From assembly GCA_963922205.1 (NCBI GenBank), contig CAWUHX010000124.1, forward strand, positions 124,001-188,000: a stretch of DNA of 64,000 nt, in the 5' to 3' direction. Origin of the DNA: Romanomermis culicivorax (lineage: Eukaryota > Nematoda > Enoplea > Mermithida > Mermithidae). Position numbers and translations under genes: made by a program. Below the pieces are notes generated by a model. That model was not told the DNA's origin and made no database searches. It saw only the letters and a program-made list of their open reading frames with translations. Position 1 is the stretch's first letter. Each line of letters begins with the position of its first letter. This document shows positions 25,581 to 49,500 of this stretch, piece after piece.

Positions 25581-28500
25581 ATGTTTGTATTCAAATTTTC
25601 GCAAATTCTAAAAAAGGGACGGCGATTGGCATTCGTCGATTATTATTCGCCGTCGAAATGGAAATCTACGTTGATCAAACGACCGGGCAAATTCGTCGTA
25701 CCCGAAGAGGTCAAGAACGCCAAAAAACCTTACTGTATGGCTATAAGGCGGGAGACCATCAACCCGTGGGAAAGACGCGCCCCCTTGGCGCCCAAGCACG
25801 TTAAATGGTTGACCAGGTCTGGCGTGAAAGTTTTGGTGCAACCGTCGAACAGGAGAGCATATCCTATGCAAGTAATAAAACTTTCGAGCATGTTAGGTCC
25901 TAGCATAAGTACTCTGAATCTTAGAATTTTTCAGCGGCACAAAGGAGTGCAGTTTTCAAGGGTAATTTTTCGCAAACTGTAACTTTTTTGAAGATTGATT
26001 TTTGAGGATTGATAAGCATGGTTGCGATACTGTGTTTTTGTTTTTTCTTCAGTCAGCTCCACCCCCTCCCCCCCGAGGACCCTTCTCCTGGAAAATTCTT
26101 GGCGTGCATGTCTGGTTGCAGCTCTGATGATTATTCAAGCTTGATGACCACTTTCAAGATGAATTTTTCCTACAGATAGACACAGCAGGGCTGTCCAAGA
26201 AAAAGTGTAACGTCAAATTCTAAAACTCGATTAGACCAAAGAGATTTCATTCAGTGAAAGATATATACATTTTCTCCATACAATCCTCATCATCCTTCAC
26301 TTGAAAAATTGTTATTTATTGGATTTTTTCTCTGACTGATACTCAAAATTGACACTTGATCTGATTTTTTTCTGGAGATACAGAGCCACGAATCTATATC
26401 CTGATGAGATGACGAATTCACGATGCACTTCGGAAATTTCAAATTTGATTGACTGAGTGATTGATTGTAATAGCACTTTGAGCAGCCCAAACCTAAAAAT
26501 ACGTTACATTCTGCAGCTTCTAAATTGAAAAACGACAAAATTCAGTGATACAATCTTTCACGCAGAGCCCGGACTCTTCGCTTGAAAAATTGTTAAAGAT
26601 CAATTGAGCATGCTTCCAAATTTCCCGTACAATGTGACATATACGGTTTAGAAGAAAAAGGATACCTGCTGCTTTCCATTTTTATTTATTAGCATTCCAA
26701 GAAAAACAGACGACTGTAGTTCAGAAATCATTAAAAAACTTTCTACATACATATTCATGAAAGCCAAACGTCAAGAAGTGAGCACGTAATTGACCAGTTT
26801 CTCCTCTACCGAACTAAGTTTCACTTTTATGATGATTCCATGATTGAAGGATTTCTTATTACAATCAATAATTTTGTTCTGGATTGCATGTGTGATTTTG
26901 TAGATGCGGATTCTGATATTTGAGAAACAAAATGCTCCGTAAATTGCGCCAAGAAAGCTTGATTAACCGGTATCCAAAACTAGCTGAACACAATCTTTTG
27001 ATATCATCTACGAATTTCCTGACTAAAATTTTTGAAGTATGCAATGAGCCAAAACTTCAGTATTTTATTAATTTCATCATTTTTGAAAAAATTTTTTTTC
27101 GATTACTTGTCGAATTTCATTTATGTTTTCTGAGGCAAATTTCAGTTGAGAGACGATTCAAATATTTGCGGTTATTGGTTTGGAGCATCCTAAGTAATTC
27201 AGTATAGTCGAGTTCACAGCCCCTTTCGTGAAATTTCAATCTGAATTTGTTTTTTATGAAAAAAGTCATTTACTTTGCGACTTTGTAGTTACCGCAAAAA
27301 CTCAGCATTAATATTGTACTTGCAGACGTCAATAATTCTACGGTATGATTACTTTTGTTTTTCCTTGAAAGAATTGTTCCGACCAGAAATGGATATGCAA
27401 GTCTCAACTTTTTCACTCCTTTCTTATTAAGGACTATATATCCGCCGGAGCAATATCGTCCGAAGATATCAGCGAAGCCAGTTTGATCATGAGCGTCAAA
27501 ACTGTGCCTATCGAGGATTTGATACCCGATAAAACCTACGTTTTTTTCTCGCATACAATCAAAGCTCAAAAAGATAACATGCCTTTGTTGGACGCCGTTT
27601 TGCAAAATGTAAAATATGCATGTGCTCTGACAAGTATGTAACGGTCCAGCCAACGTGCCATTTCAGCAATTTTTTTGCAGAATTTTCAGATGTCAGTCAT
27701 CCATTGTTTTTGCCACTAAGGTGTTCTAGTCATGCACGACAATAAACCACGCGGTAACGCTAAGTTTTAGGATGACGTATTCAGAATGTATGTTTGAAAT
27801 TTATGCGCTATATGACGGCAAAAAGCGGATGCCACTGCCTGTAAAAGAACGTTGCATATTAGGGGGCGTATCAAAGGCAAATAAAATTTCAGATAAAACT
27901 TTTCAAAGTGATCAAAAAGAACATGTCACAAATATTTTTTGCCGAAATATGCTCAAATTTCCATACACCATTTGAATTCTGCTTTTTGTCTAGCCAGAAT
28001 TTGAAGTCTTAGTAAAGCATCCATTTGAGTTTTTACCTGGTGTCTCCTATCAACAGTAGTTTTATTAGCTGTAGTGCTTCATAAATTGTACTCATTCACA
28101 ATGAACTGCTGCGCTTGGTGTCATCAACGAAAGTTGAACAAAACCAGTAAATCTCTGGTCCCAGAAAAATACTGTAATTGCTTCTGACTATCAGAAGCAA
28201 GATCAATATTTTAAGTATAGCTTGCGGTTTTCAAACGTTTACTTCGTCCATTGGACAGCTGCAGATAAATTCGAAAATAGTCTAAAATTAACTGCACTTT
28301 AATTTTGTTGGCAATAATTTTATTGAGCGTAATCAGGAGTATAAATTGCTGACGTCAAACTCATACTTTCAAGGATGCAGTCTGTCAAGCACCGTCATCA
28401 GGAAACTTTCTTCTCGACCATTCCACGCAGGAAAAGTTAGGTATTCTCAGGGATTCTATGGTCACTTTATTCCATCATTTGTTACTCTTCTAATCTTTGT

Positions 28501-31500
28501 CCCTTCCTCCTAGAATATCCGCCTAATCGACTACGAAAAAATGGTCGATGAGAAAGGTCAACGGATTGTCATGTTCGGCAGATGGGCAGGCTACGCAGGC
28601 ATGATCGACATTCTGCACGGTCTTGGACTCCGATTATTGGCTTTGGGTCATAATACGCCATTCTTGGTAATGGATAGGGATTTTGTGCCCGAAAAATGAG
28701 TTACGAGTACCAAACGTTTCATTGCAATGGGAAGATATTTACTATAAAAGTATCGACACGTTTTTAGAAAAATCCTTTGATGTTATATAAATTCCAAGCG
28801 CAAAGAAGACATTGAAACACCTGCAAAATATTATCACTTTCAGGACTTACTTGCATCCGCAATTTGAACATTCGAAAAGATCCAAAAAAGTCTTTCTTTA
28901 CACTTGTTTGCACTAAAATCGAGTAGTTCATTAGTTAAGACATCTTGAAGTCTTACATCCTAATCCTGTCTGCATTGAGACTGTAGACAGTAGTACTGAC
29001 CATGAAAACATTCGTGATTTTCGATTCACTTATGAACTACTAGACTATAGAACTAACAGAAATTCGACCTGTCTTTGATGCAAGTGGACACTGAGGAATT
29101 TCTGATTTACAAAGCTACTTCTCCAGTAGTTCGGAAATTCAGAAGTCCACTGATAAATGTGTGCTGAATTCTTGAGTTGACGAAATAATCACTTTTGGAA
29201 AGGGTTCGTGCCTTTTTCATGGTCGCTACCGCTGACGTTGAATGTTAGACTTTCTTTTTGGATATGAAAACAGAGGAATCTATCAAGAGGTGTTAGGTGT
29301 TAAAAAACTTCTGGATGTCTGAGCTGCTGAACTTACAGATTTTGGTGCAATGGTAATCTTTCTCATTATAGAAAAAAAGTTTTCTGAAAGACTTCCGAGT
29401 CATCCGAGCGTTCAAAAGTCTAAAAGTGTGTGGAAAAGTTGATTTTCGCATTCCTGATTTTTTAATCTTTCTAAACGCTTTAAAAGTTGTTTGTGCAAAC
29501 GAGCCCATTTTTCATTTCATTTAATTTCATTTTCCAATTTATGTTCCAGGAATCGTTTTTTCCGTATTAGAATTTCAGTCGTCGTTTTTTTACGTTCAGT
29601 CATTCTGATAGCTTTACGAAATATGAATTTAAAATGTCTATGAAATGTGCATCAATTAAAATTTAGAAAAAGTTTTATTCTACTGTAGTTCAATATCAGA
29701 GAATTTTGTTTTTTTCCAGTTTCTGGAAAACTTTCTCAAAATTCCAAATCACCGTACTTTTTACAGTCTAATGTTTTTCTTGGATTCAGCACATTGGTTT
29801 GGCGCACAGTTACCGCGATTCTCACATGGCGCATAATGCCGTCCGTGATGTCGGCTACGAAATCGCCCTCGGCTGCATGCCCAAGTCTTTGGGACCGTTG
29901 ACATTCGTTTTTACGGGTACCGGCAACGTTTCGCAGGTCAGAATTCGCACCTGCATCAGTAAACAGTGGCACATGCTTTGGTCTCGCAAATTCCATGTTT
30001 CAGGGAGCTCAAGAAATTTTCCAGTCATTGCCTACGGAATACGTCGACGTGGCTAATTTGCATAAAGTTGCTCAATATGGCAGTGAGGAGAGTTTTTTAG
30101 AAATGCAGACGAAATTTTCCAGTGAATAATACCTAACCTGAAAAACGTCTGTTTACGTTTACAGATCCCTGTTCATACTTTGCAGCATTACTGTGATTTT
30201 TCAACAATTTCATTTTTCACAGGCCTTAACAAAGTATACGGGTGCGTGGTCAGCCGTGCGGATCATCTCTCGCGTATAAACGGAGGCGGTTTCGATGCCG
30301 AAGAATACGATGCACATCCTGAATTGTATAAATCAAATTTTGCTACGGAAGTATGTTGCATTGTTGACTATCACTCTGATTTCAAAGATTTTGCATATTA
30401 ATTTTCAGAGTCTACTGAAGACTAGATTATCAAATATTGTGATAGAAAACGTCTGTCCATCGGATTTATTTTCATAATGTTATTTGGCATACATACACAA
30501 TGTTGAACCAGGACTTTTGATGAAAAGTCTCCATAAGCAATGCGGCTATTCAGAATGGTTATTTGAAATTTTCACATCCAGACGTAGAGCATCAAACTCC
30601 TGATGAAAGTGAATTATTTTCCAGAATGTGTCACATTTACAAAGTAGGAGTAGGCACGGAATGTTCTGTAATTGAAGTTTTGTAAAAATCTGGTTGACTC
30701 ACGCAGATTTTATTTGCTAGTGATGTATCGATAAAACGTTACTGCAAGAAGTCTGATTTTCGTTGAGAAAATGTGCTCTTTCGACTTTTAAATTTGGAAA
30801 AATGGAGATTATGCAAATATTTTCTTAATTTTCATGCAATTTATGATCAATGTGGGGTCATCATGGGGTGGTTGGATTCATTTTGATGTGCATTATTTCA
30901 AAATCTACATCTTGAGACATGCTCTCAGGAACTGTGCCTCTTGATTTGACTTTTTGCAGATGGTTTTACTCACAAGTCACTTATTACCGTTAATCTCAAT
31001 TTTCTTTTTAACGGAATTTTTATCACTAACACCTTCCCACGTTTTTTACAGGTTGCTCCTTATACCAGCGTTTTGATCAATGGCATCTATTGGGCGCCAA
31101 AATCGCCCCGCTTGATAACTTTACCGGACGCCACAGTTTTGATGTCCACGTCGATGACCTCAAGCAAGAAGGTGAAAACACCGGGCCGCCCAAGGTTACC
31201 TCACCGCCTAGTGGCCATTTGCGACATAAGCGCCGATCCGGGAGGATCGGTGGAATTTATGACCGAATGTACTACCATCGATCGGCCGTTTTGTATTTAC
31301 GACGCTAATCAACATAAAAGCCACGATTCGTGAGTAGACTGAAACGTTAATTTTTTCCAGGGCATGTTGGGAGTCGAGACTGTAGTCAACTTTTGACTAA
31401 TAATACTAATAAAGGTGCATTCCCGTCGAAACTCATGTATTGTTTATGAATCCGTCCACGTAATCAGAGTCTCTGACATGGTCGGTCTGGAACGGCACGC

Positions 31501-34500
31501 TGGGAATGACCAGAATCATAACGTAGTCCATTTGACTACATAGTGATTGAAAAATTTGTCAATCATACTAGATTTATAGAATGTAGTTTCTTGTTTTATT
31601 GAAATGTCATGCTCGTAGCTACAATATACTTAGTTACAGTGAACCTTGCATTATACATGAAAATGGAGTAGTTGACTGATCCGAACACTTTTATGCACGT
31701 CTTGAAAACGCATGAAATATAAAACGGATGGAGAAAAATCAGATGAACTTTGAACTAAATGACTCATTCGTGGTCTATACCGGCAAAAATCACTCTTATA
31801 GGTTAAACTTGAGGGTTTAAAAAAACTGTTCAGTCCGAAAATTTCGAAAACACTGAAGTTCTCAGAAGTTCTCAGATATGATGCCGAAGTGATTTTGCAT
31901 CGAAAACTGAATCCTTACTCTTGTGTCTGCAATATCGCACCTTTAATCGGACTGTAAGTTTATTGAATAATAAAATTTAGGATTTTTTGCTCACAGGGTT
32001 CGAAATAAGCGGTAATTAATCGAATGTCGACAGTGTGACACTATAAATTGAGTACACATGTAAAGGTTTATGATTCATACATAATCATGAATAATCCAGA
32101 TAGTACTTGAAATTTTTGTTTGTGAACCATTTGTAGTAGCAGACATGAGGGAGCAATCAGATTTTTATTTTTTAGCATCATATCATCTTGATTATTAGTT
32201 AAGATTCGAATAGGATAAGGTTTAATTTTCGTTCCTTGAGGAAATACAGTAATTGTCATTTGATCCTAACTACTTCGGAATTGCTAGTTACATGAGTATA
32301 TTTGCCTATGTCACTGCTCCAGATTCGCCTTACCGACTGGTGTTCTAGTGTGCAGTATCGATAATATGCCGGCCCAAATGCCACTAGAATCTACGGAATA
32401 TTTTGGCGACCTTCTAATGGACTATATTTTCGAAATGGTAAGAATATGGCGTGTTCTCGAAGAATTTTTTTCTCGTCGTACATTCCAGGCGTTATCGAAA
32501 TGAACTTTTTGGTCTACCACTTTTTCATGACTTTGCTGTCTCCGGTTGGCTAGAAACATTATTGCACAGCATAATTTTGGAGAGTATTGGATTTTTGCTA
32601 AAAGTTTCATAACTTCCAGCACGTATCGGATATTTTCACATGTATTACGTGGCTTGCCTCATCATATGATAATATGCAAAAATTCGTCCAAATTTTTGAT
32701 CACAGCCTCTATGATCACATGTTTTAGCTATTATCAGACGCCACAACTCCGTTCGAAAAGTTTCAAGCTTCGGACGCTGTCACAGGTGTAAGTGCGTTGA
32801 TTCATATTCATAAGATTCTGATGGTTACAAGGTGTCATTTTTCTAGGCAATTATAGCTTCCAACGGAAAATTGACTCCTAAATTTGCATACATTTCCGAT
32901 TTGAGACGACAGAAAGCGTAAGTATCCATCTACAAAATTAAGTACATATGACCGATAAGTCAAAACCCTGGTTTCAGAATTTTTACCCGTTATAGTCTTC
33001 CGGTGTAAATTTTATTGAATTGTGTATGTTACACTGATCATTCATGTTTTTGAGTTTGCTAAAGTACACTCCAAATTACATTATGTTGAAATAGAAATCC
33101 GTTTGTCAAGAATAGGGTGATAATCTAGCTTTCACATTCTTTCAAATTCTTAGCTATATCAAAAAATTTTTCATTGGTTTTCATGTAAATTTTCGGATTT
33201 CCGATGCTGTACTCTTTGCTTAAGTGGTGCTTCCATTGTCCTGCAGAATTATTAAATTTTCAATGTGAATGTGGTTTATTCGCAAAAACAATTAGTGTAA
33301 AATTACTTGAGTTGATACTGACAACTGTGATGCATGTGCTTTAATTATTGTAAAATTTTTCAATTTTATCAGAATGGCTTCATACCATAAAGCCGGTCGT
33401 TCGCAATCCGATTTGCCGGAAAAATCCGTTCTATTGCTGGGCGCCGGTTTCGTTTCGGCGCCGGTCGTCGAATATCTATCTCGCGCCGGCCACTCCACGA
33501 AATTGACCGTTGTGACGGAAAAGGCGTCCGACATTGAAAAATTGATCCAAATCAGTCCGGAAGTCAAAATCGAAATTATGAACGTGTTTGAAGAACAAAA
33601 TCAATTGAGTAATTTGATTGAAGATAGCGATTTGGTTATAAGGTAGATTTTTATCGCATCATGAATAGATTAATTTTTTGATGAATGACTTCTTTTTTGA
33701 TTTTTCATACCTCGACTCGCAAACCTTTAAAAAGATTCCGAGTTCCTTTTTCTGCTTTAGAAAATTTTGATTTGCTTTGGAATAGTTCAGATGTTGCAGA
33801 AAGCGTAATGTACATTTTTTCTCAATTTCCATATTCAACCTTTCACATTAGGATTTTGAACACGAGCTCAAAAAACACTTGAACTCTTGCCGGATATAGA
33901 TTATTGCCTTCCCTTGCAAATGCCGTACAAATTTCCCGGTTCACTTTAGAATTTCTAAACTTCTGAAATATTAGAAAGTCAGTTTTTCGGGAAGTTTTTT
34001 ATGTAAGTCTCAACACTTTTGAACCACTAGAACGCGACTTCTCCTTGGTGCAAGGTAACACTTCGGACATTCGAAGAGTACCATGGAACATCCTAACATG
34101 TATGTGAATTCACATCAGTCATAAAATTATGTTTCATACCTCAAAACAGATCAGTCTAATCAAAAATTTACTATTGATTCTCATTATTTATTGAACATCC
34201 CATACAGATTCATGCCTCTACGCACACTGAATCATAAAATGATTCTTCCGAAAAAAATTTCAGCTGAAAGTCGTTTTCGCGAATTCCAAATCATCAGTCT
34301 AAACCGGATTCTTCTCTATAATATGTCTAATTTTAACTAGAGAAATCTGGACATGTGGATATAGGTAATGGTTTGATTATCGTGTAAACATCAAAATCCG
34401 TGTACAATATTATATGAATTTTGGAAATTCGGAGTAAAGGTTTATACCGAAGTCGAATTTTGTTTGCCATCAAACAGTGATCAGATTTCGCACAGGGAAT

Positions 34501-37500
34501 TAAAGTAAAGTTTTATAGCATCAGTCTGATTAAGTCCATTCAAAATGATAGGATAACATAAAAGATAAAGACTATGAAAAAGTGCAACATATGGCGTAGG
34601 AATAAATGTGAAATTTTAAGCTGAGAAAGTAAAATAGGTAGGCTCTCTGAGGAGCGAAATTGAACACTTCAAGTTGTCCGACTGAGATGTTATAAGTTTA
34701 TTTAACGGCTCGTTTTTTTGAACCACCCTGCTATTTTCAGGATTTCATACTCATGATTTGTGCTGCACTGCATTCAAATCAGACTCAGTCAATGCATCGC
34801 ATCTGTCATGGACTTTCATTCAGCATCTTCAAAAAAAATTTTCAGTGCTTATAGTCAGACCTCATTAAACAATGATGGCCTGAATGAAGTCAGACACCAG
34901 TTTTCTATCAGTTACCTAATTCCAAAGATTTCACTCCTGAACTCTACACCTTGTTCTTTGTAACTATATTTTTTCCTAGTTGAACACTTTCCACCCATTT
35001 ATTCCTTATTCAGTTTGTTATTTTTTTTAAGCTTACTGCCTCACCAAATGCATCCCAATATTGCTAAACTTTGTATAAAACACCAGTCGCATATGATAAC
35101 CGCTAGCTACTTGTCGCCAGAAATGCAAATTTTACAAGAATCGTAAGATCTCGAAAAAACATCATCAACGAATGACTGTATAACCGGGTTTTTTAGAGCC
35201 GAAAAGGCCGGCGTAACTATTGTTAACGAAGCAGGTCTCGACCCGGGTATCGATCATCTGTTGGCCATGGAGCTGATCGATTCGGTTAAGGAACAAGGTG
35301 GCAAAGTGAGAAATGTTCAAAATTATCACATGCACAAAAGAGCAGTTTTACCTCAACAAATTGTCATCTTAAATTCAGTTGACCTTTCTAACATCAAGTA
35401 TTATTCAAAGCAGATTAGCTGCATTATTTCACACGGTTCAAAAATGTGGACCATGCATGATACACTCTACTGTTTATTATCCTACTTACCCACAGGTTAC
35501 ATCTTTCGTTTCATGGTGCGGAGGGCTACCGGCGCCGGAATTTTCGGACAATCCATTACGATACAAGTTCAGGTGCCAAAACTTCCTATAATAAAATATA
35601 CAAAATTTGACGTCAACGAGATTCTCAACAGTAGCCAATCATTTAATTATATCGCTTTTTTAAGTTGGAGTCCGCGGAACGTACTTTTGAACGCCTTGTC
35701 GCCGGCCAAATACATTTACCAGGGTCGCGTCGTCGACGTGGCGCCCGGGCATTTGTTGGACGAACCGATGTTGGTGGACTTTTTGCCCGGCTTCAATTTA
35801 GAAGCGTACCCGAACAGGGATTCGACAACCTACGCGAGGCTTTACAAGTTGAACGAGGCTAAAACCGTTCTAAGGGCCACGCTGAGGTAAGCTATGATGG
35901 GCATCCCATACAGATGATTTTTGCTTATTTTTCATTCCGAAAACTATGATCAATAATTCTGTGCCGGGATCAGTCAAAATTTCTCCGGAATAGGAATCTT
36001 ATTGTGGGCCAGTCCAAATCTGTAGCATGCAGAACACGCTTAAAACCGACGCAAAAAGAAGTTAGTTCACGATTTAAATCAGAATTCACGTTTTGGCAAA
36101 TGTGTTAGAAACAACAATTATAGTTTTTCAACAACGAATTGTATTCGCATTATTTTCAGTTTAGAGTTAGTAGAATTTATAAAAATTTGCTTTCCTCGCC
36201 AATCAGTGGCTGTAGTAGTCCAGCCAGTTTAATTAGTGTTCAGGGTTTCTACCATGTGATACTTTTTGACGTCAATTTTTAGTTCATTGATTGAAAATTA
36301 AGTGGGTAGTCAGAAGCGTTTCGGCTACTACATTATAAGCTTACAGCTGAACATTTGGTTTCTAAGCTGCAATCGTTAATTTTGATAATCATGTACAACA
36401 TACTGTTGTTTCATAGGTTTTGATCACAATGAGCCAATTTTTGTTCGGAACTAGACACGTCAGTAGTATTTTCCTTCAAATTTGTCGATTTTTCCGGAAT
36501 CTCTCAAAAAGATAATCCATGAATAATCCCGAAAATGAATACTTATGTACGTACCACTTCAAACATGAAATTCTTCAAATGATACCGGGCGAATTCTTCT
36601 ATAAAATGCAAGAGACTGGAGCCACAGATTTACTGTAAGATAAAAATTTTACTCGAGATTTTTAGATCACCCTGTATTCCAAGGTTGAATCTGAAACAGC
36701 GCGTTTAATACGCCGAATCCTGATAACAGAATAGCATTTCCTGAAAAAGGATTATTTTTGAAAGTCAAGCAAGTGGTTTCAACTTCGGATTGGCATGAGC
36801 CTGAGCTATGCAGGATCTGCATTTCACACTCCTACAGTTTATTTCTATAGTCTATTTTGAAATGACAGATGCAGCAAAACATTGAAAATATGTCCAATTC
36901 GGATAAAATAGTATCTTATTACTGTTAAAACTCTCTCGACTACAGGCGACCAGCAGACCGACTGATCACTTTCTCAAATAACTTGATCAACAGCTCGCTA
37001 ACAAATCAAAAATCTGCAATCAACATGCTGTTTCCTTAATTTGGCCTCATCATTGTCAAGAGGAATTCATGTTTTCTAGAGTATAAAATTTTTTATCCCT
37101 TGAAAATTGTATGACAGATTGAACCTTCGTTTTTTTGTTGCTGCATCTGTCATTTCAAGATTAATGGGCTATAGTACGAAACAGTAAATTCTCAAAGATA
37201 TGTGTCTTTTTGTGTCGTAATTTTTGTCATGTGATTTCAATCGATTTTTTGTCTGGCACCTTAATTTTCACGATGCCTACATCATCTGCAATAAATTTTT
37301 GCAGATATCGCGGATTCGGACAAGCCATGCGCAGTTTCTTAGCTTTGGGGCTTATAGATCCCCAACAGCACGCGGCGTTCGACCCCGATTTCGGGCCTAA
37401 TCTTACTTGGGTATGAAGTAATGGTTTTTTGGTCAGTCGAAAATCCCGACTTCAAGTTTCACCTTTTTTTCTTCAAACAGAAACAAATAATGGCCCTTTT

Positions 37501-39699
37501 GATGAACATGAAATCGGACATTTTCGTCGATACTCTAAAAAGTCGAATAGCAGAACGTTTCGGCGGCGAACATTCTATAGAATATAGAACGTTGGAAGAG
37601 TAAGAAAATTCATAGAATAATTTATCGGATAAATTTATCCGCAAGTACAATTTTCAACTGTAGAAGGAATATCGAGAAAAATTCTTACTGTAACAGAAGT
37701 CGTGTTGGACACAAAGCAATTTAATTGGTCGAAATATTTTATATCATCAATTTGATTGGTCGAAAAATTGTAGTCTACTCCTTCCTAACCGTGAGTCCAA
37801 GCCTAAGCCCTAGCCTAGGCCTAAACCCAAACCTAGGCCTAAACCTAAACCTAAACCTAAAACTAAGCCTAAGCCTAAGCCAGAAAATATGCCAGAACAA
37901 TTAAAAAAATAATAAATTTTTTCGACCAATCAAATTGATGACAGTTCTCGCTCCACAATGCATTCTCTGTTGGACACCTTTGACCATTCTTTTATTCAAA
38001 AATGACCATTTTCTACCAAAACAAAACTTTTTTCCGTTTTTTCATCCCCAGCCGTATCGTCTACGATTCTTGGGAAAAATTCCTATAGTACCTTTTCCCA
38101 ATAGCGTATCTACTGTAGCTGCAATAAGCCAGATTCGATTTTCAGCTTGAATATGCTCGATGACGAAGAATTTGTCGAACGAAAAGGCAGCCCTCTGGAC
38201 ACCCTGTCTCATTATTTGACCTCTAAATTATCGTACAAGAAAAATGAACGAGACTTATGCTTGTTGCGACACGATGTCACTGTAGCCTGGCCAAACGGAT
38301 CAGAGGTATTGTCTGCGAGAATAACTGTGAAAAATTGATCTATACATACCGCATCATTTTGAAACGCCAGGAAATCCACCACGTCAATTTGGTGAAATAC
38401 GGCGATGCTAATTCTTATTCGGCTATGGCCAGCACTGTAGGTTACTGTACGGCTATTATGGCGAAAATGATCTTGGATGGTAAGCTTACTTTGTATGAGC
38501 TCAAAAGTTCCTGGGTATATCATCTTCGAGTAAATCAACTGAAATTTTGCATTTGAAATTGTGATATCATGTTTTAAAATCAGGAAAGAAGTTTAGTAGT
38601 TGCATGATGAAGTCGAATGATCGTGCGTCGAATTTTAGATAATTTTGATCTTTGGAATTCTTCTAGCATCTGTTCCACGTCCTGTTCAAATTTTCATTCT
38701 GATGTCTGCAGTAAACAAACGATTGACTAAAAACTTTACTACGACCTGTTTTTTCATAAGATACTTGCAAATAACTAAAATTGACAAAAATAAGTACTGC
38801 CTCATTATTCCATGAAGCTTTTACTGTAGAAGTTTTTGCACAAACATTTTTAGGGTTGGTTGTGTTAAATCATACATTTGCAGCTCTATATGACTTTCGG
38901 TTTACCAAGAAATCACAAAATATGAAGCATTCAAGAAAAAAGTCTACAGATTCATTTGCAGAATCCAAGCTTTAGTCTGCTTTTTATAAAATGCTGGCAA
39001 ATTTTAAAAGTAGCAAAAATTAGAAGCACCATCAAAGTCGTTTATGCAAAGCTTTTGCTATATCATTTTTTCGCAAAGTCGTTAAAAGTTAATCAAGCAT
39101 GCTCACATTTGTAGCCCACTGCAGGCCAAAATTTAAAAGTATGAAATGGTATTTGATTTATTTTTTCATTATTTAGGCGCGTTCATAGAAAAACGTAGTT
39201 CTAGAATAGTTGTCACTTTTTGTGATTATGGATAATTCTGTGAATACTGTGAGCGTTTTAAAAATATAAAGACGTGAATTTTTGTTGTGCGAGTTATACT
39301 CAGATAAATCCATGTCACATTGATATTTTGTCATTGATCATGACTCGAAAAATTATCATCACTGATTATTTTGGCCTTATCCAGATTTTACATTCTGTTG
39401 CACCTGTTTTTTCTGTTTGGTGTGTCTATAAACGTCACAAATCTCACTTATTCTGTCTTTCTGATGTCAGATTGGCTTCATCCTTTGAGCATAATTATGG
39501 TATGTATCGTCATGATATTTTCAATTCACTTCTTTTCGTAGGTGAAATACAAGTCAAGGGTCACGTGCTCCCTATGAATAAGGCTGTTTACAGACCCGTT
39601 TTGGATAGATTGGCTAAAGAAGGAATCGTGGCCAAAAGTTCTAAAACCATAGTAAAAGACGACCGTTTTGTGAAAGGCATGGGTAATCAATCTTTATGA
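25581..39699 (+). CDS. AASS: Bifunctional alpha-aminoadipic semialdehyde synthase (lysine-ketoglutarate reductase / saccharopine dehydrogenase)
   Basis: Twenty exons: 25581-25871, 27432-27608, 28514-28666, 29790-29936, 30004-30082, 30223-30350, 31052-31329, 32323-32437, 32728-32787, 32847-32917, 33373-33642, 35032-35142, 35197-35305, 35496-35572, 35665-35886, 37305-37410, 37481-37599, 38146-38305, 38371-38479 and 39542-39699. They sum to 2940 nt (979 residues), every phase agrees and every intron is GT-AG. The N-terminus is hydrophobic and basic before the first acidic residue, as in a mitochondrial leader. The reductase half (about 45-499) has [30 protein letters not shown] and [13 protein letters not shown]. 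The dehydrogenase half (about 500-979) has a Rossmann loop ([16 protein letters not shown]), [16 protein letters not shown] and [18 protein letters not shown]. The enzyme condenses lysine with 2-oxoglutarate to saccharopine, then splits it to aminoadipic semialdehyde and glutamate. Human AASS (926 residues) is collinear. Confidence 0.96.
26600..26715. mobile_element. Fragment of MITE family M4
   Basis: It keeps the interior word GATACCTGCTGCTTTCCATT and the right end ATTAGCATTCCAAGAAAAACAGAC, but the left half is shortened or rearranged (ATGCTTCCAAATTTCCCG). It lies in AASS intron 1. Confidence 0.5.
37744..37941. repeat. Telomere-like GCCTAA array inside a perfect 24-bp inverted repeat (copy 2)
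   Basis: The left arm starts TCATCAATTTGATTGGTCGA (37744-37767) and the right arm (37918-37941) is its perfect complement over 24 bp. Between them, about 37797-37882, lie some 85 bp of GCCTAA/ACCTAA units, with degenerate CCTAGG variants in the first part and clean CCTAAG at the end. A partial extra copy of the arm word (TTGGTCGAAATA) precedes the left arm. It lies in AASS intron 17 (37600-38145). Confidence 0.85.
38973..39197. mobile_element. Diverged MITE, family M4 copy 3
   Basis: Left end TAGTCTGCTTTTTATAAAAT and right end CATAGAAAAACGTA are inverted relatives of the family termini. The interior keeps CAAAGTCGTTTATGCAAAGC and TTTTTCATTATTTAGG. Older and more diverged than the copies at 23852 and 55833. 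It lies in the last AASS intron (38480-39541). Confidence 0.65.
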
Positions 39700-39823
39700 A
39701 ATCTTCAGTGTATTCTACATGTTATTATTACTTTTTGCTATTACCTCTTTCCGCTACAATTTGTTCTATTACGTTTTAGTATGTATATTTATGATTAATG
39801 TTTTTGTCAGTGTCTAACTATCT

Positions 39824-39829
39824 AATAAA
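39824..39829 (+). terminator. AATAAA polyadenylation signal of AASS
   Basis: A canonical AATAAA lies 125 nt after the AASS stop codon, in AT-rich sequence. The reductase-only paralog starts about 320 nt further on, so the two genes are close enough for a shared transcript to be possible; no direct sign of an operon was seen. Confidence 0.6.
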
Positions 39830-40149
39830 GCTACGAGTATTTATTGTTCGAAAAAGATTAATGATTGCAAATTTCAAGGACTAAGTCATTTTTCAAATTT
39901 GATTGAACGATTTTTTGACGTTTCACCGCAGTAGTTGAGTTTTTTATTGTTAAAATACCGTTACTATTCCATTTTATATTTCGTATGTTACAGTCAAATC
40001 TACATTGTAAATTCACAGCGGACTACTGCTTTTGTAGAAATCGTTGAAAGATTTGCATGTTATTGTGGAACTTTCCTGCAAAGAAAGCTAACTTTTTTTT
40101 AAATTGAACTTTCAACGTTTGCTGCATTGATTGGGAGAACTGCTTACAT

Positions 40150-43100
40150 ATGAACGGAGACCATAAATCGCTGTGCGTGGCCATAAAACGTGAAACCACG
40201 AATCCCTGGGAGCGAAGAGCTCCTTTAGCCCCGAGACACGTAAAATTTTTGTCCAGCAACGGTATCAAAGTCATAGTTCAGCCGTGCAACAGGAGAGTGT
40301 ATCCTACTCAGGTCGGGAAGGTTTCCCGTTTTCGTGACGTTTTTTAAGCAACTCTATTCTGTAAAGGACTACGTCGTTGCTGGCGCCACTATTTCCGAAG
40401 ACATTTCAAAGGCTAGCCTGATCATTGGCATCAAAGCATCGAAAATTGAAGATTTATTATCCAATAGAACTTACGCGTTCTTTTCTCATACTGTCAAATC
40501 GCAACCCGAAAACATGCCTTTGTTGGGCGCCATATTGCAAAAAGTATGATCAACAACGAGTAGCGTTTGAGCTTACACATCGTCGTGGGGGGTCTGGAGG
40601 TTTTGAACTCGCCCAGAGAGGTGATACCACCCATAATGTAACTGCTATAGGCGAGCAATAACTTTTTTCTTCAAACAAGCAATAAATTGGGTGTCAAACA
40701 ATAGATCTCACATTCTTTTTTGACGGAATTATATGAGTAGCTAAGGTTCGGTCGCTCTCCTTCAGATTTCCTTACTGAAGACTCTCCTCTTGTCTCTAGA
40801 ATATCCGTTTGATCGATTACGAAAAAATTGTGGACGAAAACGGACATCGAACGGTGATGTTCGGAAAATGGGCTGGTCGAGTCGGAATGATCAATATTCT
40901 ACACGGACTTGGTCTTCGGCTATTGGCATTGGGCTTCAATACTCCCCTGATGGTGAAGAGCATACTAATTTCATACTAAACTTTTACATGAAGGAGCATC
41001 GATGACGCAAAAAAAAAAGATGCACATGAGAAAAAGTGTTGCGAAAAGTCTTTTTCTAAGTCGCTGTGATCAATTTGAGGAGAAAAGATATCGACTCACG
41101 GATTTTTATTCGCATAAACGTTTTTTTAGTGTCGCCGAAGCTCATTCGAAATGAGGAACATTTAATGGTCATTTTTTGTAGCACATCAGCTTAGCTCATA
41201 ATTACCACAGTTACCAAAAAGCCAAGAAAGACGTTCAAGACGTCGCCGAGGACATAGCTCTTGGACTGATGCCCCGATCTTTACCACCGCTGATATTTGT
41301 ATTCACCGGCAGTGGAAATGTTTCACAGGTTTTTGTAACGGTTATTTAGTCAACATGGAGCTGAAAATGTTAAAACTTCTGATTTTCACATTCATTTTTG
41401 AGTTTTCGACGGTTTTGATGGAGATATGTCGGGGATGGGAAATTTTTTCAAGCTATTTTCTCTTTGCGCTCGAGTTTCCAAGCCATTCTGTAGCTAACCA
41501 ACTTTCGAGTTCTGTGCATATTTTTCACTGAATGAAGAGTCATTGGACGTCTTTACTTTGATACAATTCATCAGAGCATGCAGATATTCCACAAATCTCC
41601 TACGTACGAGTACATACCTTGGCGCACGAACAAACATCTTTTCATCAAAGTGATGTCATCAAAAATTCAAGCATGCACGCCATAACACAAAGGTGTTAAT
41701 TATTTCATTTATAAACAACCACTCAAGCTTTCACTAATCTTGTGAAAATTAGTTACATAAGTGACATGAGAAGTATACTTGTGGGTCTTGGGGATAGTCC
41801 ATTTACTTTGAGATTTACTAGTCCATTTTCTTGGGCAGGCGCAGCGAGAACCAATGGAAAACTTTATACTGTGGAAAAACGCTAAGTTTCTCAATGAAAA
41901 TAGGAACTCCAAAATCATAGAAAGACTAAGCTGCTTATCTACTTTTGATTTGGATAGAGCTGTATTTGACACACAAGTATTACTCGAGAAGTTTTCACCA
42001 TTTAAGTAGGTATATGGACGGGAATTTTCATCTGTTCTGTTTACCGCTTGTGATCGATAGCTTGTGATCGATAAATTTTCTTCATTCATTACAGTGACAT
42101 GTATAAAACTTCTGACAGGCCTTGCGAACTCCGACTTCGGAAACTCTATGACAAAAAGGACCTTCTTGATACGTGTTCTATCTATTGTGTTCAATTCAGG
42201 AGCAAATTTCAACATCTTTCAGCAAAAATACGGGTCTATGCCTGAAATGGTACCCAACTCCGCTGCTTATTTAAGTTCAGAGACGTCTGTGCGATTGATG
42301 AATTTTCGTCATAAGTCAATATGTTTTCCTCATAAGTTGACTCGAAATTCAAATTTTTTCTGCACGAGGAACATTGTTTTTTCTCCCTTCTTGTCATTTA
42401 TGTCTTTGTATCACAGAGACTCATTTGAAATTGAATGAACTGTGTGCTAGCATCCCTGTTAAAAGCAAGCTACCCAGTGGAATTTTTCCCAAAGAAGGCC
42501 AAAAACATACACTTTTTTGCAAATTTTTTTCAATTTTTTCCAAACTGGGGGGTTGGGGGGGGTAAATGATTTTGGGTACTGGGTTGGCCAAGTTGGGGGG
42601 GGGCCCAACCCCCGCCAAGTACAGGTATGCAAGGGAACTGTAAGACCGTTTGACACTACTTGAAGTTATTAGGATAGAGAGAGGCCGCTTGTGTGCCAAA
42701 CAGGTGAAATCATCATCAGAAAATATGATGCACGTCTATTTGTTGAGCTTACTTTGACATACTATCAAATATACGCTAAAAAACAAAACAGATTCAGTAC
42801 GCTACGTTTAGAAATAAAACGAACCTGCATATTTTAGGGGGCTCAAGATGTGTTTCGCCATCTTCCAGCCGTGTTCGTGAACGTCGCTGATCTTCCCACT
42901 GTTGCAAAATATGCAGGCAAAAATGCTTACAGTACATGAAAATTCATAGAATAACCCCTGTTTTACGTGTTAGATACCGACAAAGTTTACGGTTGCGTCG
43001 TAAGTCGTGCCGATTATATTTGCCGGAAAGATGGCTCGGGTTATTACGACGAGGAAGAATACAGTCTTCATCCTGAATTGTACGAGTCCAATTTCGCTGC

Positions 43101-45981
43101 AAAGGTAAGAAGATACGAAGCGGCTGAGATGATTATTACCTCCCTTACAAACACTGGCCATAATAAGTTCCTGTTATCAAATAGCATTTCTATTCAAATG
43201 GAATATGCCTGGGTAAATATCTTCCAGCAAGCATGCCTAAACTTCGGTTCAGCAATGAAAATCTGGTTAGGTCAACTAAACTTGAATCATTTTCAATTCC
43301 GTCAAAAATATAAATGAATAGTTTTAAATCATTTTTATTTATAGGTCTCAATGAGGTCTCTTCATTGATGCTCGATTTGCCTAGAACGAATAAATTTTTT
43401 CGCATCATTCTGGATGGAATCAGGCAATTATCTGGTTGATATCACGTATTTTCTGGATGAGATCTTAAGCGCATAAAAATACTGCAAGGAAGATGATCCT
43501 GCATAGACTCGGACCGCAAAACATTCTGACGAGTCGGTCCAGAATGAAATCTCAGTCCCATAAAACTCCGTCGTCAGACATGCATTAATACATTTGCTCA
43601 AAATTAGCTCAACAAAGCTGTTATCTATGGAAGTAGCTCAACAATGCAACATGGTTTGAATTTGTTTGGCAAAAATAAAGCTTGTTCTCTGTGAAAATTT
43701 CGTATCTGCACAGATCAAATTGCTCTGAAAGACAGTCGATTTATTTTCGAATGAGCTTTCAAAGCAAAGAAATCTTCATGCATATAAGATACCTTCATTT
43801 TTCAATAGTTCCTTTGCTTATAGGTTATTTTTCCGTACCTTTGTAAAATCGATTTGGCTTTCGCAGAGGGTTAGTCTTTTTACGTCAGCATCTTTCGAGT
43901 GAAGACCCAAATCTTCGAGTTGACATCAAGCGTGCACAGTGTAACTGCGCTAATTTTTCCACTATTTAGCGTCCTTTAGAAAAGCAAAATTGAACCAGCA
44001 GAAAGCTCTTTTGACGGAACTAAAAACAAATGCCATTTTGACTTATCGGTTTAGACCACCGGAAACGGACAACTCTTTCAAAATTCTGCGTGCATCAAAT
44101 TTCAATTGTCCCCAAGTGCTAACTTACTTGTTTTGGATAATTAAGAAAAAAAACGATGTTTGAAAATATGTATCAAATAATCGTTTTCAAATGTTTTCTC
44201 ACCAAATTTAACACCTTGCCTTTTTCAAAGTTAGATTTAGATGATGGTGACAAGCTCTGTAACATATTTCCACGAGAGTCGTAATTTTTAACTGCTAAAA
44301 AACTCAATTTTTGTGACATTATTCCAGATCACCTAGCTATTTTGTGAATATGTGTTTACATGAAAAAATGTAGCTGCAATGACCAGCAATATCGGCTCGT
44401 TGATGTAATATATCGCATTTTCTAAAATCGTTCCCTAGTACTTGTATTTTTATCGATTCTATCATAGAATGTGATGAGGGAGCACATTATCAGCACAATG
44501 AAAAAAATTTTGTGCACTCAAAAGCAAGACATCTTCCTGACGTCAAGAAAATGCGACCCGTTCCTCGCTCATAGAAATGCAAGGCTTACTGTAGTCAGGA
44601 AAATATACGACTGCACTAAACGTATGCCATTCACATGCATGTGAACACCTCCTGCTTCTCAAGTCTGATAAAAACAATACATTATCCATGTAGATTGCGC
44701 CGTACGCCAGCGTCATCGTGAACGGCATCTATTGGGAACGGAAATTTCCGCGCCTCATCGCGTCATCCGACGCCCAAATTTTACTCCGTGACGGGAAAAA
44801 GGCCAGACTGATGGCCGTTTGCGATATAAGTGCCGATTCCAGCGGTTCTATGGAATTTATGACCAAATGTACGACCATAGATCGACCTTTTTGCATCTAC
44901 GATCCGGAACGGAAAATGTGCAGCGATTCGTAAGTTTTATGCGAACTCGGTAATTCGATCCAGTGAAGGTTACTGCAGTTTTTTTGTAGTCTCGATTCAC
45001 CTACCGGAGTTTTATTGTGTAGTATAGATAACATGCCGGCACAGATGCCCCTGGAATCGACCGATTACTTCGGTGACCGTCTAATCAATTATGTTTTCGA
45101 TATGGTAAAAACACAGGGCTAAATTATACGGTATTGTACCTTTCAACAATTTTGGGATTGGAGACATCCCATCAAACGCAATTCTCAAAATTTCTTTAAC
45201 TGAAACTGTAATTTAGTTATTTCTAATTCTGCTGAGCCTTTCGGCTGTCGATTCAAAAGTGTTTGAATTCAGCTTCTCAGCTGGCCTATGTAGTCGTGCC
45301 ATAGGTATAGTACACTCAAAGCGTACAATAGTAAACTGTTTTTTGGCCTCAGTTTTACATGACAGAGTAAACAGTAAATCGCATTTTTCTGAGCTGAGCA
45401 GAATTTCGATAAAATTTGCAGTTTCCCGAAATTTTCAATACATCTTTCATTGCGAGTTAAAGCTAGATTAGGGATTAGAAATTTATCTAAACTTATCTAT
45501 AATCCATTCTGGGTGTAGATTCGACCGTTTCCAACGATAAATTTTTATGTTGTTTCCGTTGGAATTGTGGAAAATAGTTCAAAAAAGTCACAGAAAGTTG
45601 CTACCGCACACTGTTTGTGCCATATTATCAATGTTTCCATAAATTTTGTTTTTGTGAAAACAAAATTCTGGGGGAAACTCAGTGCTGTTATAATACCTGT
45701 CAAATCGGATATTTCCTATGGAATGTACAGGAAAACTACTACACGAGAGAATTTCAGTTATCGTGCATTGAAGGTTTATCCCGCTATACTTATAGAGTTC
45801 AATTTCACACCAATCGCTTTTACAGTTGTTGTGCTCGGAATCAACGCACCTGGAAAATTTCCGATCCTCCGTTGCGATCAAAAACGCTGTGATTGCTTCC
45901 AATGGAAAATTGACCCCAGGATTCAGTTATTTAGCAACTGAAGATCAGAAAGGGGCTATCAGTCTATCTATTAATATGTAG
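40150..45981 (+). CDS. Reductase-only AASS paralog (lysine-ketoglutarate reductase domain, no dehydrogenase)
   Basis: Nine exons: 40150-40311, 40367-40543, 40800-40952, 41182-41328, 42838-42916, 42974-43104, 44694-44929, 44990-45104 and 45826-45981, totalling 1356 nt (451 residues). No frameshift or internal stop; phases agree throughout. Exons 2, 3, 4, 5 and 8 have exactly the lengths of the AASS exons (177, 153, 147, 79 and 115 nt). Conserved blocks include [42 protein letters not shown] and [12 protein letters not shown]. The start removes about 44 N-terminal residues, including the leader-like part of AASS, so it may be cytosolic. The ninth exon joins what are exons 9 and 10 of AASS, and TAG follows nine residues after the point where AASS splices into its dehydrogenase half. 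Intron 5 appears to use a GC donor. It could make saccharopine but not split it; activity is unproven. Confidence 0.87.
41850..42080. repeat. Dispersed repeat family R1, copy 4
   Basis: Contains TCCAAAATCATAGAAAGAC, TTTTCACCATTTAAGTAGG, GGGAATTTTCATCTGTT and GTTTACCGCTTG, in the family order; the most diverged of the four. It lies in intron 4 of the reductase paralog. Confidence 0.5.
42547..42603 (+). other. Potential G-quadruplex tract
   Basis: Five G-runs occur within 57 bases: 6 G at 42547, 8 G at 42555, 3 G at 42574, 3 G at 42581 and 9 G at 42595, with short loops. A C-run follows directly (CCCAACCCCCG), so hairpin pairing could compete. It lies in intron 4 of the paralog on the transcribed-sense strand, in otherwise AT-rich DNA. 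Confidence 0.7.
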
Positions 45982-46588
45982 TTTCGAATATTCAAATCTG
46001 GTAGCAATAGCATAGGGAAGTCGTACGGTCCTTATTGTGTATGAATGAGCAATTTTATACTAAATATAAACTACAGTATCCTGAAAAATTGTGTCAAATT
46101 TTGCACATGTATTATGCAGGTACTACTTATATTAATTTCAATCCTATCTTGCTGGTGTCGAAATTCTTGTGGTGACTTTTCACTTTCTCATACTATAAAC
46201 ACGTCATGCTCGTTGTTCTTTTGACTACAGTAATACTTGCGTACGAAACTTACGTCAAAATTTTCTTGATCATCATTTCAACACAAAGAACTTTAATCTC
46301 TAAATGAAGAGTACATTGCAAATAAAAATTATCATGGCAAACAATGACTGGACGAGACGCCAGCAGACTATAGATACGATTTTTGTACAAAACATTATGA
46401 TGGCAGACATCATATCGGATTCGCAAGACTTAGTCTTACTGTAGGGTCAAGAATCTCGTTTGTACTACAGTATGGCCTACCGTATATCACCCACAACTTT
46501 TAAAGCCCGAGCGATAGTCAGACAAATATATGTATAAATGCAGTATAAAGCATAGAAAACAATCGACCAATCGACGATGGTCACGTGA
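45982..46588. other. Convergent intergenic region
   Basis: It separates the stop of the reductase paralog (plus) from the stop of the receptor kinase (minus) by about 600 bp. AAATAAA at 46319-46325 may serve the plus-strand gene. I searched for a remnant of the dehydrogenase half after the paralog and saw none. Confidence 0.5.
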
Positions 46589-49500
46589 TCATCGAACAAA
46601 CGTCGATTGGCCGTTTACAAATTGCGCCGGATGGTGATGATTGGTCGTCCTGTTATTGCTGGTCGAACCCAAAGCGTTGGTGATTTGGTGCAAATGATGA
46701 TCCATAAAGAGGACGGGCGTAAAATACAATTCGAAATCGACGGTGGCGAAAGGCGCGAACGGGTCGAAAGATCTTTGCTGCAAAGTTTCGCCCAAAATAG
46801 AGACTAAACGGCCGAAGTCCGGGCGAATGGCTGGTTCATGGTGCCAGCAGCGGAGCATCAGCGAATAACTGAAAATTTTACAAAAATTGATCGCCACGAA
46901 TTAATAAAATAACATTAACGTCATTATTAATTAAAGTAGCAAAAAGTGATTACTGTAATCATTAAAAAGATTGGCTGATCTGAATTTTGCTTCTTTTTTT
47001 ATACTCATACTTGTCTTTATCATTATCCATACTTTTACCCTTATTCTCATCTTCTTTTTGTCCTAATCATTGTCCTCGTCTATGTCTTCACCTCTATCGT
47101 TATCATGTTCGTTTTCCTTATCGGTATGTTTATCCTTACCATTATTCTCGTTTTATTCCTTTCAACATTTTTGTTCTTGTCCTTATTATTATTGTTATCC
47201 GTTGTCCCAAACATAGTCCTAATTCTTACCCGAACCTGTACCTTCATCCTTTATTCTTGTTTATTTTCTTACTCTTATCCATATCCTCATCCACCCTTGT
47301 ACCCTTGTATTTACTCTTCTTTTTGTTTTCGTTTTTGTTTCTGTTCTTGTTTGTTTTTGTTTATGTCTTTGTTCATGTCTATTCTTGTTTGTCATATTTA
47401 TTCTTATAATTATACGTTTACTTCTCGTTCTTCTCCTTCTCATTCTTCTTCTCCTTCTCCGTCTCCTTCTCCTTCTTCTTCGCCTTCTCCTTCTCCTTCT
47501 CATTCTCCAACTCCTTTTCCTTCTCTTTCTCTTTCTCCTTCTCCTTCTCCGTCTCCGTCTCCTTCTCCTTCTTCTTCATCTTCTCCTTCTCCATCTCCTT
47601 TTCTTTCTCCTTCGCATTCACCTTCTTTTTCCTTTTCCCTTTCTCTTTCCTTTTCCTTTCCCTTTCCTTTTCCTTTTCCTTTTCCTTTTCCTTTTCCTTT
47701 TCCTTTTCCTTTTCCTTTTCATTTTCCTTTTCCTCTTCCTCCTTCTTTTTCTCAAATTGTCATAATAAATTTGAGATTCTTTTTTCACATTCGATTTCCT
47801 AGAACCCAGACCAAGAAAATTATTATTGACCAGGAACTCTCACATTTCTGTCGGACATTGAGTCGGCCGTGAAAGACGATGGCCGGCGTCGAGATATTCG
47901 CGTAGCTTGGAATGGCTAATGTTGGCGTAAGGCACGAGACCTCTGGTCATCAATTCCCATAGTAGGATGCCGAATGACCACTAAAAAAGTAAGTGTGAAA
48001 AGAAGCTGGATACTGAATCAATCGGATCTAGAACCGAAATTAAAATTGGAATCAGATTCTGTTGGGTTGACAAATTTTTAGCTTTAATCCTGATTTGGTA
48101 AGTAAAATGTTTAGGCCTACAAGCCTAAGGTGAGTTTCCAACATTTTGGTTTTGGGTATGATATCTGACGTCTTGGTTCGAGCAAGGAAAACAAAAGTTA
48201 GCGGTCAACCGGATGAGCTCTTCATTGAAAAGTGATTTGGATGATGTCCAAACCATTTTCGTAATACTTAGAAGTCATTCGAGTGACCAAAGTCACTGCT
48301 AGCCAGGCCAACGAATTTGGTGATTTAAGTTCGGAACTAGATCAGATCACCTTCAGAGCCATTAGAAGTCATCCACGGGATCTTGTCACTCCAATGTCAC
48401 TCCAATCCCGTCACTCCAATGACTGCTCAAGTAAAAAAAGTTAAAGTGATACAGAATAATATTCCTGATCAATCCATTCGGAATATTGTGCACCAAAGGG
48501 TCATCGACGTGACCGGTGGTCAGTCGGATTATCTCGACTCTAATCTCAAATATTCGTCAGTTTTTGTTAGCAAATTTTGGGCTGTACCTACCACGTCAGT
48601 TTTCACGTCGAATACCCGTCGATCCCGTAAACTTTCCGGCGCCATCCATTTGATAGGCAGCCGAGCGTTTGTTTCTTCCTGTAGATAATCTTTTTCGTAT
48701 AAATCCAAAGCTAAGCCGAAATCGGCAACTTTGACCACCCTGTCGTTGGTGATCCTGTGAAAAGGGATGCTCAAAGTTGACGGACGGTGAAGTCACCGTA
48801 AACCTTTTTCATACATGCAATTCCTGGCTGCTAAATCCCTGTGGACGAATTTTGAATTGGCTAAATATTCCATGCCCTGGGCGACTTGATATGCAAAATC
48901 GAGAAGATCCATCACTATCAATGTCTGGAAAACAAAGTTATGTAAAGACTAAAATATCAACTGTCTCGATGTTTGGCACTGGAAAATGACACGAAGGTCA
49001 GTTGCAGTCTAGAAGTAAGCAGTGTAAGGCGTGGCTAAAAGCTGCGAATATTGAGTCATGATTTCCCAAGCAGTAAACTTCAGGGACAAGAACATTTTCG
49101 TGATCAAATTCATACCTTAGCTGATATTTGTTTTGGGTAACATCACTCGTTGGATATTTCTTTCTTACTCTATATGAGCTCATAAAACCACATATTAACA
49201 CTGAACCTGAATTAGCACTGAACTTGATTTTTTTCTAAGCAATGAAGAAATCGATTCGATATAAAGTAAATTTCAAAATTCCGTAATTTGTATCGGATTC
49301 GAGCCGTATCATCATTGTAACTAAAAATCTGATTTTAAACTTAGTTTCAAAAAAAATTTGACACAAAACGACATGACTTCAAGTCCTGATCCCGACGGTA
49401 GAAAGTGAAGTATGATGGGGAGTCTGTTTGGCCAGGATTCTATGCAAAAATACTACTTGATTTTTGTAATTTTCGTTAATTTGCTTCATGGGTGAATTTT

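Follow-up and report, generated by a model that had tools for sequence, protein, structure and literature searches.

Lysine-ketoglutarate reductase (LKR) and saccharopine dehydrogenase (SDH) are normally joined in animals in one bifunctional protein, AASS. In the window analysed here, a stretch of 64,000 nucleotides of Romanomermis culicivorax DNA (contig C124, positions 124001-188000, within an assembly of 359 Mb and 595 contigs), an intact AASS gene (copy 1) is followed by a second copy (copy 2) that stops after the reductase half. An earlier note, made from the letters of this DNA, had described copy 2 as a tandem AASS paralog of which an intact protein with the reductase alone is left, a description that the sequence supports. 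The question raised by this locus is whether copy 2 is a working reductase, a partner of copy 1, a reductase with a new task or a gene on its way out.

Gene structure of the two copies

The exon models of both copies were derived from homology and splice signals and are therefore predicted rather than transcript-based (Table 1). When copy 2 was rebuilt base by base, the start codon at 40150 and the stop ending at 45981 both proved exact, as did the nine exons and the 451-residue open frame of the earlier note. The exons (162, 177, 153, 147, 79, 131, 236, 115 and 156 nt) are spliced into 1356 nt without an internal stop. Copy 2 carries none of the marks of a processed or decayed copy (introns gone, stops, frameshifts); eight introns are retained and the frame is open.

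Table 1. Features of the two AASS copies, in window coordinates.
Feature	Position	Strand	Remarks
Copy 1, intact bifunctional AASS	25581..39699	+	20 exons, 979 residues; reductase then dehydrogenase; basic N-terminal extension
Copy 1 dehydrogenase half, exons 11-20	33373..39699	+	Sole dehydrogenase match in genome search
Intergenic gap, copy 1/copy 2	39700..40149	+	450 bp; AATAAA at 39824
Copy 2 exon 1	40150..40311	+	Begins at reductase domain, no presequence seen; R23 (human R39)
Copy 2 exon 2	40367..40543	+	K77, H95, K98, Q100 (human K93, H111, K114, Q116)
Copy 2 exon 3	40800..40952	+	R130, A138, G139 (human R146, A154, G155)
Copy 2 exon 4	41182..41328	+	FTGSGNVS stretch; S208 in place of human T224
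Copy 2 exon 5	42838..42916	+	GC donor at 42917; in-frame alternative GT donor at 42932
Copy 2 exon 6	42974..43104	+	S250, R251, Y269 (human S266, R267, Y284; NADPH contacts)
Copy 2 exon 7	44694..44929	+	D331 (human D358); 12 residues missing (human 336-347)
Copy 2 exon 8	44990..45104	+	
Copy 2 exon 9 and stop	45826..45981	+	Reductase domain end and short tail; runs across a site where copy 1 has an intron
AATAAA, candidate poly(A) signal for copy 2	46321..46326	+	

Every one of the eight introns of copy 2 has a counterpart in copy 1 that matches it in alignment column and phase (8/8); the lengths of the introns differ throughout. The claim that AASS exon lengths and phases are kept through the reductase half stands in full for the phases and in part for the lengths, which are identical for exons 2, 3, 4, 5 and 8 (5/9). 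Relative to their copy-1 counterparts, exon 6 of copy 2 has 3 nt more and exon 7 has 42 nt fewer, and exon 1 is without the presequence part. Exon 9 corresponds to exons 9 and 10 of copy 1, whose reductase part contains an extra intron (32788-32846) that is absent from copy 2. One intron, at 42916-42973 in the window, is of the GC-AG type in copy 2 and has a GT-AG counterpart in copy 1.

The splice signals bear on one alternative reading, in which copy 2 was long maintained but is now recently silent or fading, with an open frame that is poorly spliced or not expressed. The exon-5 donor of copy 2 is a non-canonical GC in a weak context (gcaaaaat) where copy 1 has GT, and retention of intron 5 would stop the frame after residue 246. 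Use of the GT donor 15 bases further on would keep the frame and add five residues, giving a 456-residue product and a 42-nt intron. Acceptors ending in CAG are also few in copy 2 (1/8, vs 11/19 in copy 1). We return to this reading below, where the constraint on the coding sequence is given.

A single dehydrogenase match in the genome search

The C-terminal saccharopine dehydrogenase domain, required of a bifunctional AASS, is absent from the copy 2 protein. The earlier note held that the stop of copy 2 is followed by no dehydrogenase half, and this was upheld both in the window and in the assembly. In a tblastn search of the window with the copy-1 dehydrogenase, strong matches were confined to copy 1 and no dehydrogenase half was found 3' of copy 2, the best match past 45981 having an E value of 1.6. 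Run against all 359 Mb of the assembly, with E values of up to 0.1, the same query gave 10 match rows, all 10 in copy 1. With copy 2 as the query, 16 match rows were obtained genome-wide, every one of them in copy 1 or copy 2. At the search sensitivity used, the genome contains two reductases and one dehydrogenase.

It is conceivable that a dehydrogenase part of copy 2 exists and was lost or misplaced during assembly. Nothing found here speaks for it. The window contains no N, no second dehydrogenase match occurs across the 595 contigs, and the two copies are too different (168 of 444 aligned residues) to be a duplicated haplotype. We regard an artefact of this kind as barely credible.

The Pfam profile AlaDh_PNT_N also matches a third place in the genome, on contig C60 (locus L001), which copy 2 does not match. 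By eye, its open frame resembles an NAD(P) transhydrogenase.

Age and course of the duplication

The two copies are identical at the other 276 of the 444 aligned residues and have diverged at 88 of 120 fourfold sites; on these counts the duplication is old. A tree built from both copies, human AASS and 25 of 80 prokaryotic LKRs (see below) placed copies 1 and 2 together with support of 97/91. The tandem duplication thus most probably postdates the divergence from vertebrates, although the alternative groupings of copy 1 with human and copy 2 with human (p-AU 0.11 and 0.12) were not rejected.

The 3' end of copy 2 hints at how the stop arose. Exon 10 of copy 1 ends in AGAAAGC, followed by the donor gtaagt; copy 2 has AGAAAGG and then GGCTAT. 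Loss of the donor and read-through into the old intron could have supplied the stop. The tail of copy 2 has no significant similarity to the copy-1 intron (shuffle P 0.38), and a read-through origin is therefore only suggested.

Active-site residues and domain boundary

The N-terminal reductase domain of AASS is present in copy 2, for which the human AASS reductase domain (8dda) is the best PDB match (E 1.2e-147, query residues 3-439) and which Pfam AlaDh_PNT_N matches at E 2.3e-21. The C-terminal AlaDh_PNT_C stretch scores 22.8 bits, slightly below the Pfam cut-off of 23. Copy 2 and human AASS are identical at 229 of 435 aligned residues.

Residues important in human LOR are named in portions of PMC13174811 and PMC9490328. 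We used the chain numbers of 8dda as human residue numbers, and every named residue gave the expected letter. Of the 13 positions (R39, K93, H111, K114, Q116, R146, A154, G155, T224, S266, R267, Y284 and D358), 12 are identical in copy 2, and T224 is replaced by Ser. Both catalytic residues (human K93 and H111) are present, as K77 and H95. The residues that bind saccharopine (R39, Q116 and R146) and the nearby K114 are likewise all kept (4/4), as are the NADPH contacts S266, R267 and Y284, with T224 the one exception among four. In human AASS, S266 and R267 touch the NADPH 2' phosphate, as described in a section of PMC13174811.

As for the domain ends, passages of PMC9490328 report that a human construct of residues 21-451 was folded yet inactive, that one of residues 21-470 was active and tetrameric, and that the C-terminal helix of the latter extends to the active site of a neighbouring subunit. 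Copy 2 starts opposite human residue 19; its last aligned human residue is 465, after which 12 more residues follow, and it thus passes the published active boundary (human 470) by residue count, the stretch past 465 being counted and not aligned. Beyond the column of copy-2 Y435, the prokaryotic LKRs extend by a median of 6 residues (n=80), copy 2 by 16 and copy 1 by 488. Both ends of copy 2 therefore suit a free reductase.

The sole sizeable deletion in copy 2 relative to human AASS removes the 12 residues equivalent to human 336-347, in exon 7. Human residues 331-339 are described as missing and modelled in part of PMC13174811. We counted the overlap of the deletion with this modelled stretch in favour of a working enzyme.

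Comparison with prokaryotic reductases

As a yardstick for a free reductase we used prokaryotic LKRs. A scan of genome contigs that included the human row gave 181 relatives, from which 80 prokaryotic LKR loci (L024-L103) were kept; an earlier contig scan with a two-row alignment had found no relatives. All 80 loci entered the profile, and three plasmid relatives were left out. The earlier note confined free LKR mainly to fungi and some plant transcripts, which is too narrow: these 80 bacterial and archaeal loci encode stand-alone LKR, and 74 of them have a separate SDH-like ORF nearby. The free prokaryotic LKRs resemble copy 2 in length and in domain end, and their invariant core is mostly kept in copy 2, but the mean identity of copy 2 to them is 34%.

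Thirty-seven columns are invariant in all 80 prokaryotic LKRs; copy 2 keeps 34 of these, copy 1 keeps 35 and human AASS keeps 36. Because the loci were baited by two conserved motifs, the motif columns are favoured in this count, and it was repeated with these columns omitted, which left copy 2 with 29 of 32, copy 1 with 30 and human AASS with 31. The two copies agree at 35 of the 37 invariant columns vs 239 of the 413 others (Fisher p 1.5e-6; 9e-6 without the motifs). The sole invariant column that copy 2 alone has lost among the three animal sequences is R29 (human numbering), which is kept in 80/80 prokaryotes, human AASS and copy 1 and is Lys in copy 2. At the columns that are 95% conserved in prokaryotes, copy 2 retains 60 of 80, copy 1 retains 67 and human AASS retains 66.

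At the position of Arg267, which human AASS, copy 1 and copy 2 share, 76 of the 80 prokaryotic LKRs have Glu. This contrast suggests a switch of cofactor in the animal line.

Evolutionary constraint and rate

Codon differences between copies 1 and 2 fall at positions 1, 2 and 3 in 114, 86 and 264 of 444 codons, respectively. Pairwise dN comes to about 0.27; dS is at saturation (LWL85 dS 2.0; NG86 gave no dS), and this saturated, pairwise comparison therefore gives no dN/dS for copy 2 alone. The 64 amino-acid changes found only in copy 2 are conservative, with a mean BLOSUM62 score of 0.44 vs -0.47 for random single-base changes. In a neutral simulation, about 0.7% of frames were still open at 0.1 substitutions per site, and at 0.2 none of 300 was open, with about 8.5 stops each. 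The argument that an intact frame speaks for selection therefore holds, given the bias of third over second positions (264 vs 86) and the absence of open frames among 300 drifting ones. Copy 2 has evolved under constraint.

Its rate is nevertheless raised. The end branch of copy 2 in the tree is 0.63 vs 0.17 for copy 1 (about 3.7 times faster), and private changes number 64 in copy 2 vs 24 in copy 1 with gap positions excluded (68 vs 38 with gaps). Faster evolution, together with the GC donor and the scarcity of CAG acceptors, would suit the silent or fading gene described above. A reading frame of 1356 nt with neither stop nor frameshift argues against it, as neutral drift would break frames at the rates just given, and so does the retention of deeply conserved columns; we think it unlikely that copy 2 is silent or fading. 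Alternatively, copy 2 may be a neofunctionalised reductase of the same fold and chemistry that works on another amino donor or in another direction (for example, forming lysine, or acting on another amino acid). The three- to fourfold faster branch fits such a change, as do substitutions adjoining the active-site strings (human 96, 115 and 157), but the named saccharopine and NADPH contacts are unchanged except for T224S, and we hold a new specificity to be quite improbable.

N-terminus and predicted location

Residues 1-40 of copy 1 include 10 K/R and 1 D/E. Copy 2 lacks this N-terminal extension, a difference that the earlier note did not mention, and no mitochondrial presequence was seen in it by inspection and charge count. 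The first in-frame stop 5' of copy 2 is a TGA at 40105. Inspection by eye of the 450-bp gap (13 AG sites, 39851-40149) gave no convincing leader exon. ATGs occur in the gap at 39861, 39985 and 40057, the last two in frame with copy 2. The frame that opens at the ATG at 40057 is closed by the TGA at 40105, and it could be a leader no longer in use or a chance occurrence.

Since a presequence is not evident, the product of copy 2 is probably cytosolic. By the account in parts of PMC2745569, mammalian enzymes are mitochondrial and the plant enzyme is cytosolic. Tick LKR/SDH is reported there in both cytosol and mitochondria, and a presequence is therefore not a sure guide to location.

Location also bears on whether copy 2 acts on its own. 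In human AASS the reductase domains form a tetrameric core and the dehydrogenase dimers lie outside it, as set out in a portion of PMC13174811. Copy 2 could thus be translated as a subunit or regulator that enters the tetrameric core of copy 1 and shifts the ratio of reductase to dehydrogenase, or it could have some other non-catalytic role. Loss of one partner domain would suit mixed oligomers, and faster evolution is in keeping with such a part. On the other hand, the kept catalytic and contact residues are unexpected in a catalytically dead subunit, and copy 2 has no evident presequence by which to reach copy 1 in the matrix. We consider this role unlikely.

A probable stand-alone reductase and its precedents

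The reading that we favour, with moderate confidence and from sequence evidence, is that copy 2 encodes a functional stand-alone lysine-2-oxoglutarate (lysine-ketoglutarate) reductase that arose by tandem duplication of AASS, is without dehydrogenase and presequence, and would form saccharopine in the cytosol. A bifunctional AASS would have been duplicated in tandem within the animal lineage, after which copy 2 would have been cut off at the domain boundary, with loss of the dehydrogenase half, and would also have shed the mitochondrial presequence. If expressed, the protein would form homotetramers, as the human reductase core does, and join lysine and 2-oxoglutarate with NADPH into saccharopine. 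The product of the copy-1 reductase can pass to the tethered dehydrogenase, whereas saccharopine made by copy 2 would have to leave the enzyme; in the cytosol it would either enter mitochondria and be split by copy 1 or accumulate. Unsplit saccharopine is described as toxic to mitochondria in a part of PMC12583054.

A wider proposal, which we put forward only tentatively, is that this animal reversed the LKR-SDH fusion by duplicating the gene and shifted the opening step of lysine catabolism outside the mitochondrion, with cytosolic saccharopine either carried to the only dehydrogenase or used as a product. Long retention of a reductase that has no dehydrogenase of its own makes such an animal a natural test case for two questions: why the two activities usually come in one protein, and whether the harm done by saccharopine is confined to mitochondria.

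Several known systems resemble copy 2 in part. Animal AASS (human 8dda and 8e8u) has the homologous reductase domain, the same catalytic and substrate contacts and, but for T224S, the same NADPH contacts; copy 2 differs from it in having no dehydrogenase domain, no presequence that could be seen and a loop shorter by 12 residues. Yeast LYS1 (lysine-forming saccharopine dehydrogenase; 2qrj, 2q99 and 3ugk), which comes next after human AASS among the PDB matches, is a stand-alone reductase homologous to copy 2 (E about 1e-10) but distant in sequence. Monofunctional pathway enzymes were reportedly described in an animal (mouse) in 1999; the product is said to be the dehydrogenase, made from the AASS gene and not from a separate reductase gene. 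Yeast LYS1 serves lysine synthesis and is NAD(H)-dependent, according to a section of PMC9490328.

Closer parallels come from plants and, as far as duplication is concerned, from insects. In excerpts of PMC3017810, a monofunctional LKR gene of poplar is described that, like copy 2, is reductase-only, lies in tandem beside full-length LKR/SDH genes and ends soon after the last reductase exon. The poplar gene has an apparent frameshift (still to be confirmed, according to the authors) and is matched by no ESTs, whereas copy 2 is an old animal gene with an intact frame. The same excerpts describe monofunctional LKR transcripts of switchgrass and Arabidopsis, whose product consists of the reductase alone and stops shortly beyond the LKR exons, the switchgrass transcript reading into the next intron; these are transcripts of an LKR/SDH gene, whereas copy 2 is a separate gene. 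Duplicated lkr/sdh genes of insects show that the gene has been duplicated in other animals, but the portion of PMC4441501 that deals with them tells of two lkr/sdh genes, a number of which are pseudogenes, and mentions no reductase-only gene. None of the titles and abstract openings in the open-access literature searched names a reductase-only animal gene. Within that literature such a gene is new, and the nearest precedent found is the poplar tandem LKR gene with its apparent frameshift.

Surroundings of the locus

Downstream of copy 2, a protein kinase exon lies on the minus strand (window 49805-50194; Pfam PK_Tyr_Ser-Thr, E 1e-8); by eye it is part of a receptor-type kinase gene directed towards copy 2. 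Near the other end of the window, also on the minus strand, a 231-residue open frame (4325-5020) with several hydrophobic stretches looks chemoreceptor-like by eye and is matched by no Pfam family at E 0.01. A genome search for the exact 22 bases of SL1 found no match, and an Rfam SL1 search gave no match among the 50 of 149498 candidates that were scored, its controls likewise giving none.

TTAGGC is the nematode telomere unit. The genome contains 14221+14795 = 29016 overlapping matches to (TTAGGC)4 vs 0+11 for the reversed control, and those listed lie inside contigs. Taken with the lack of an exact SL1 match, this abundance would suggest a nematode that does not belong to the groups with canonical SL1. 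A degenerate GCCTAA/CCTAAA array occurs within a copy-1 intron (window about 37795-37885), and long GAAAA-type and CT-rich microsatellite tracts occupy about 20350-20920 and 47400-47750 of the window.
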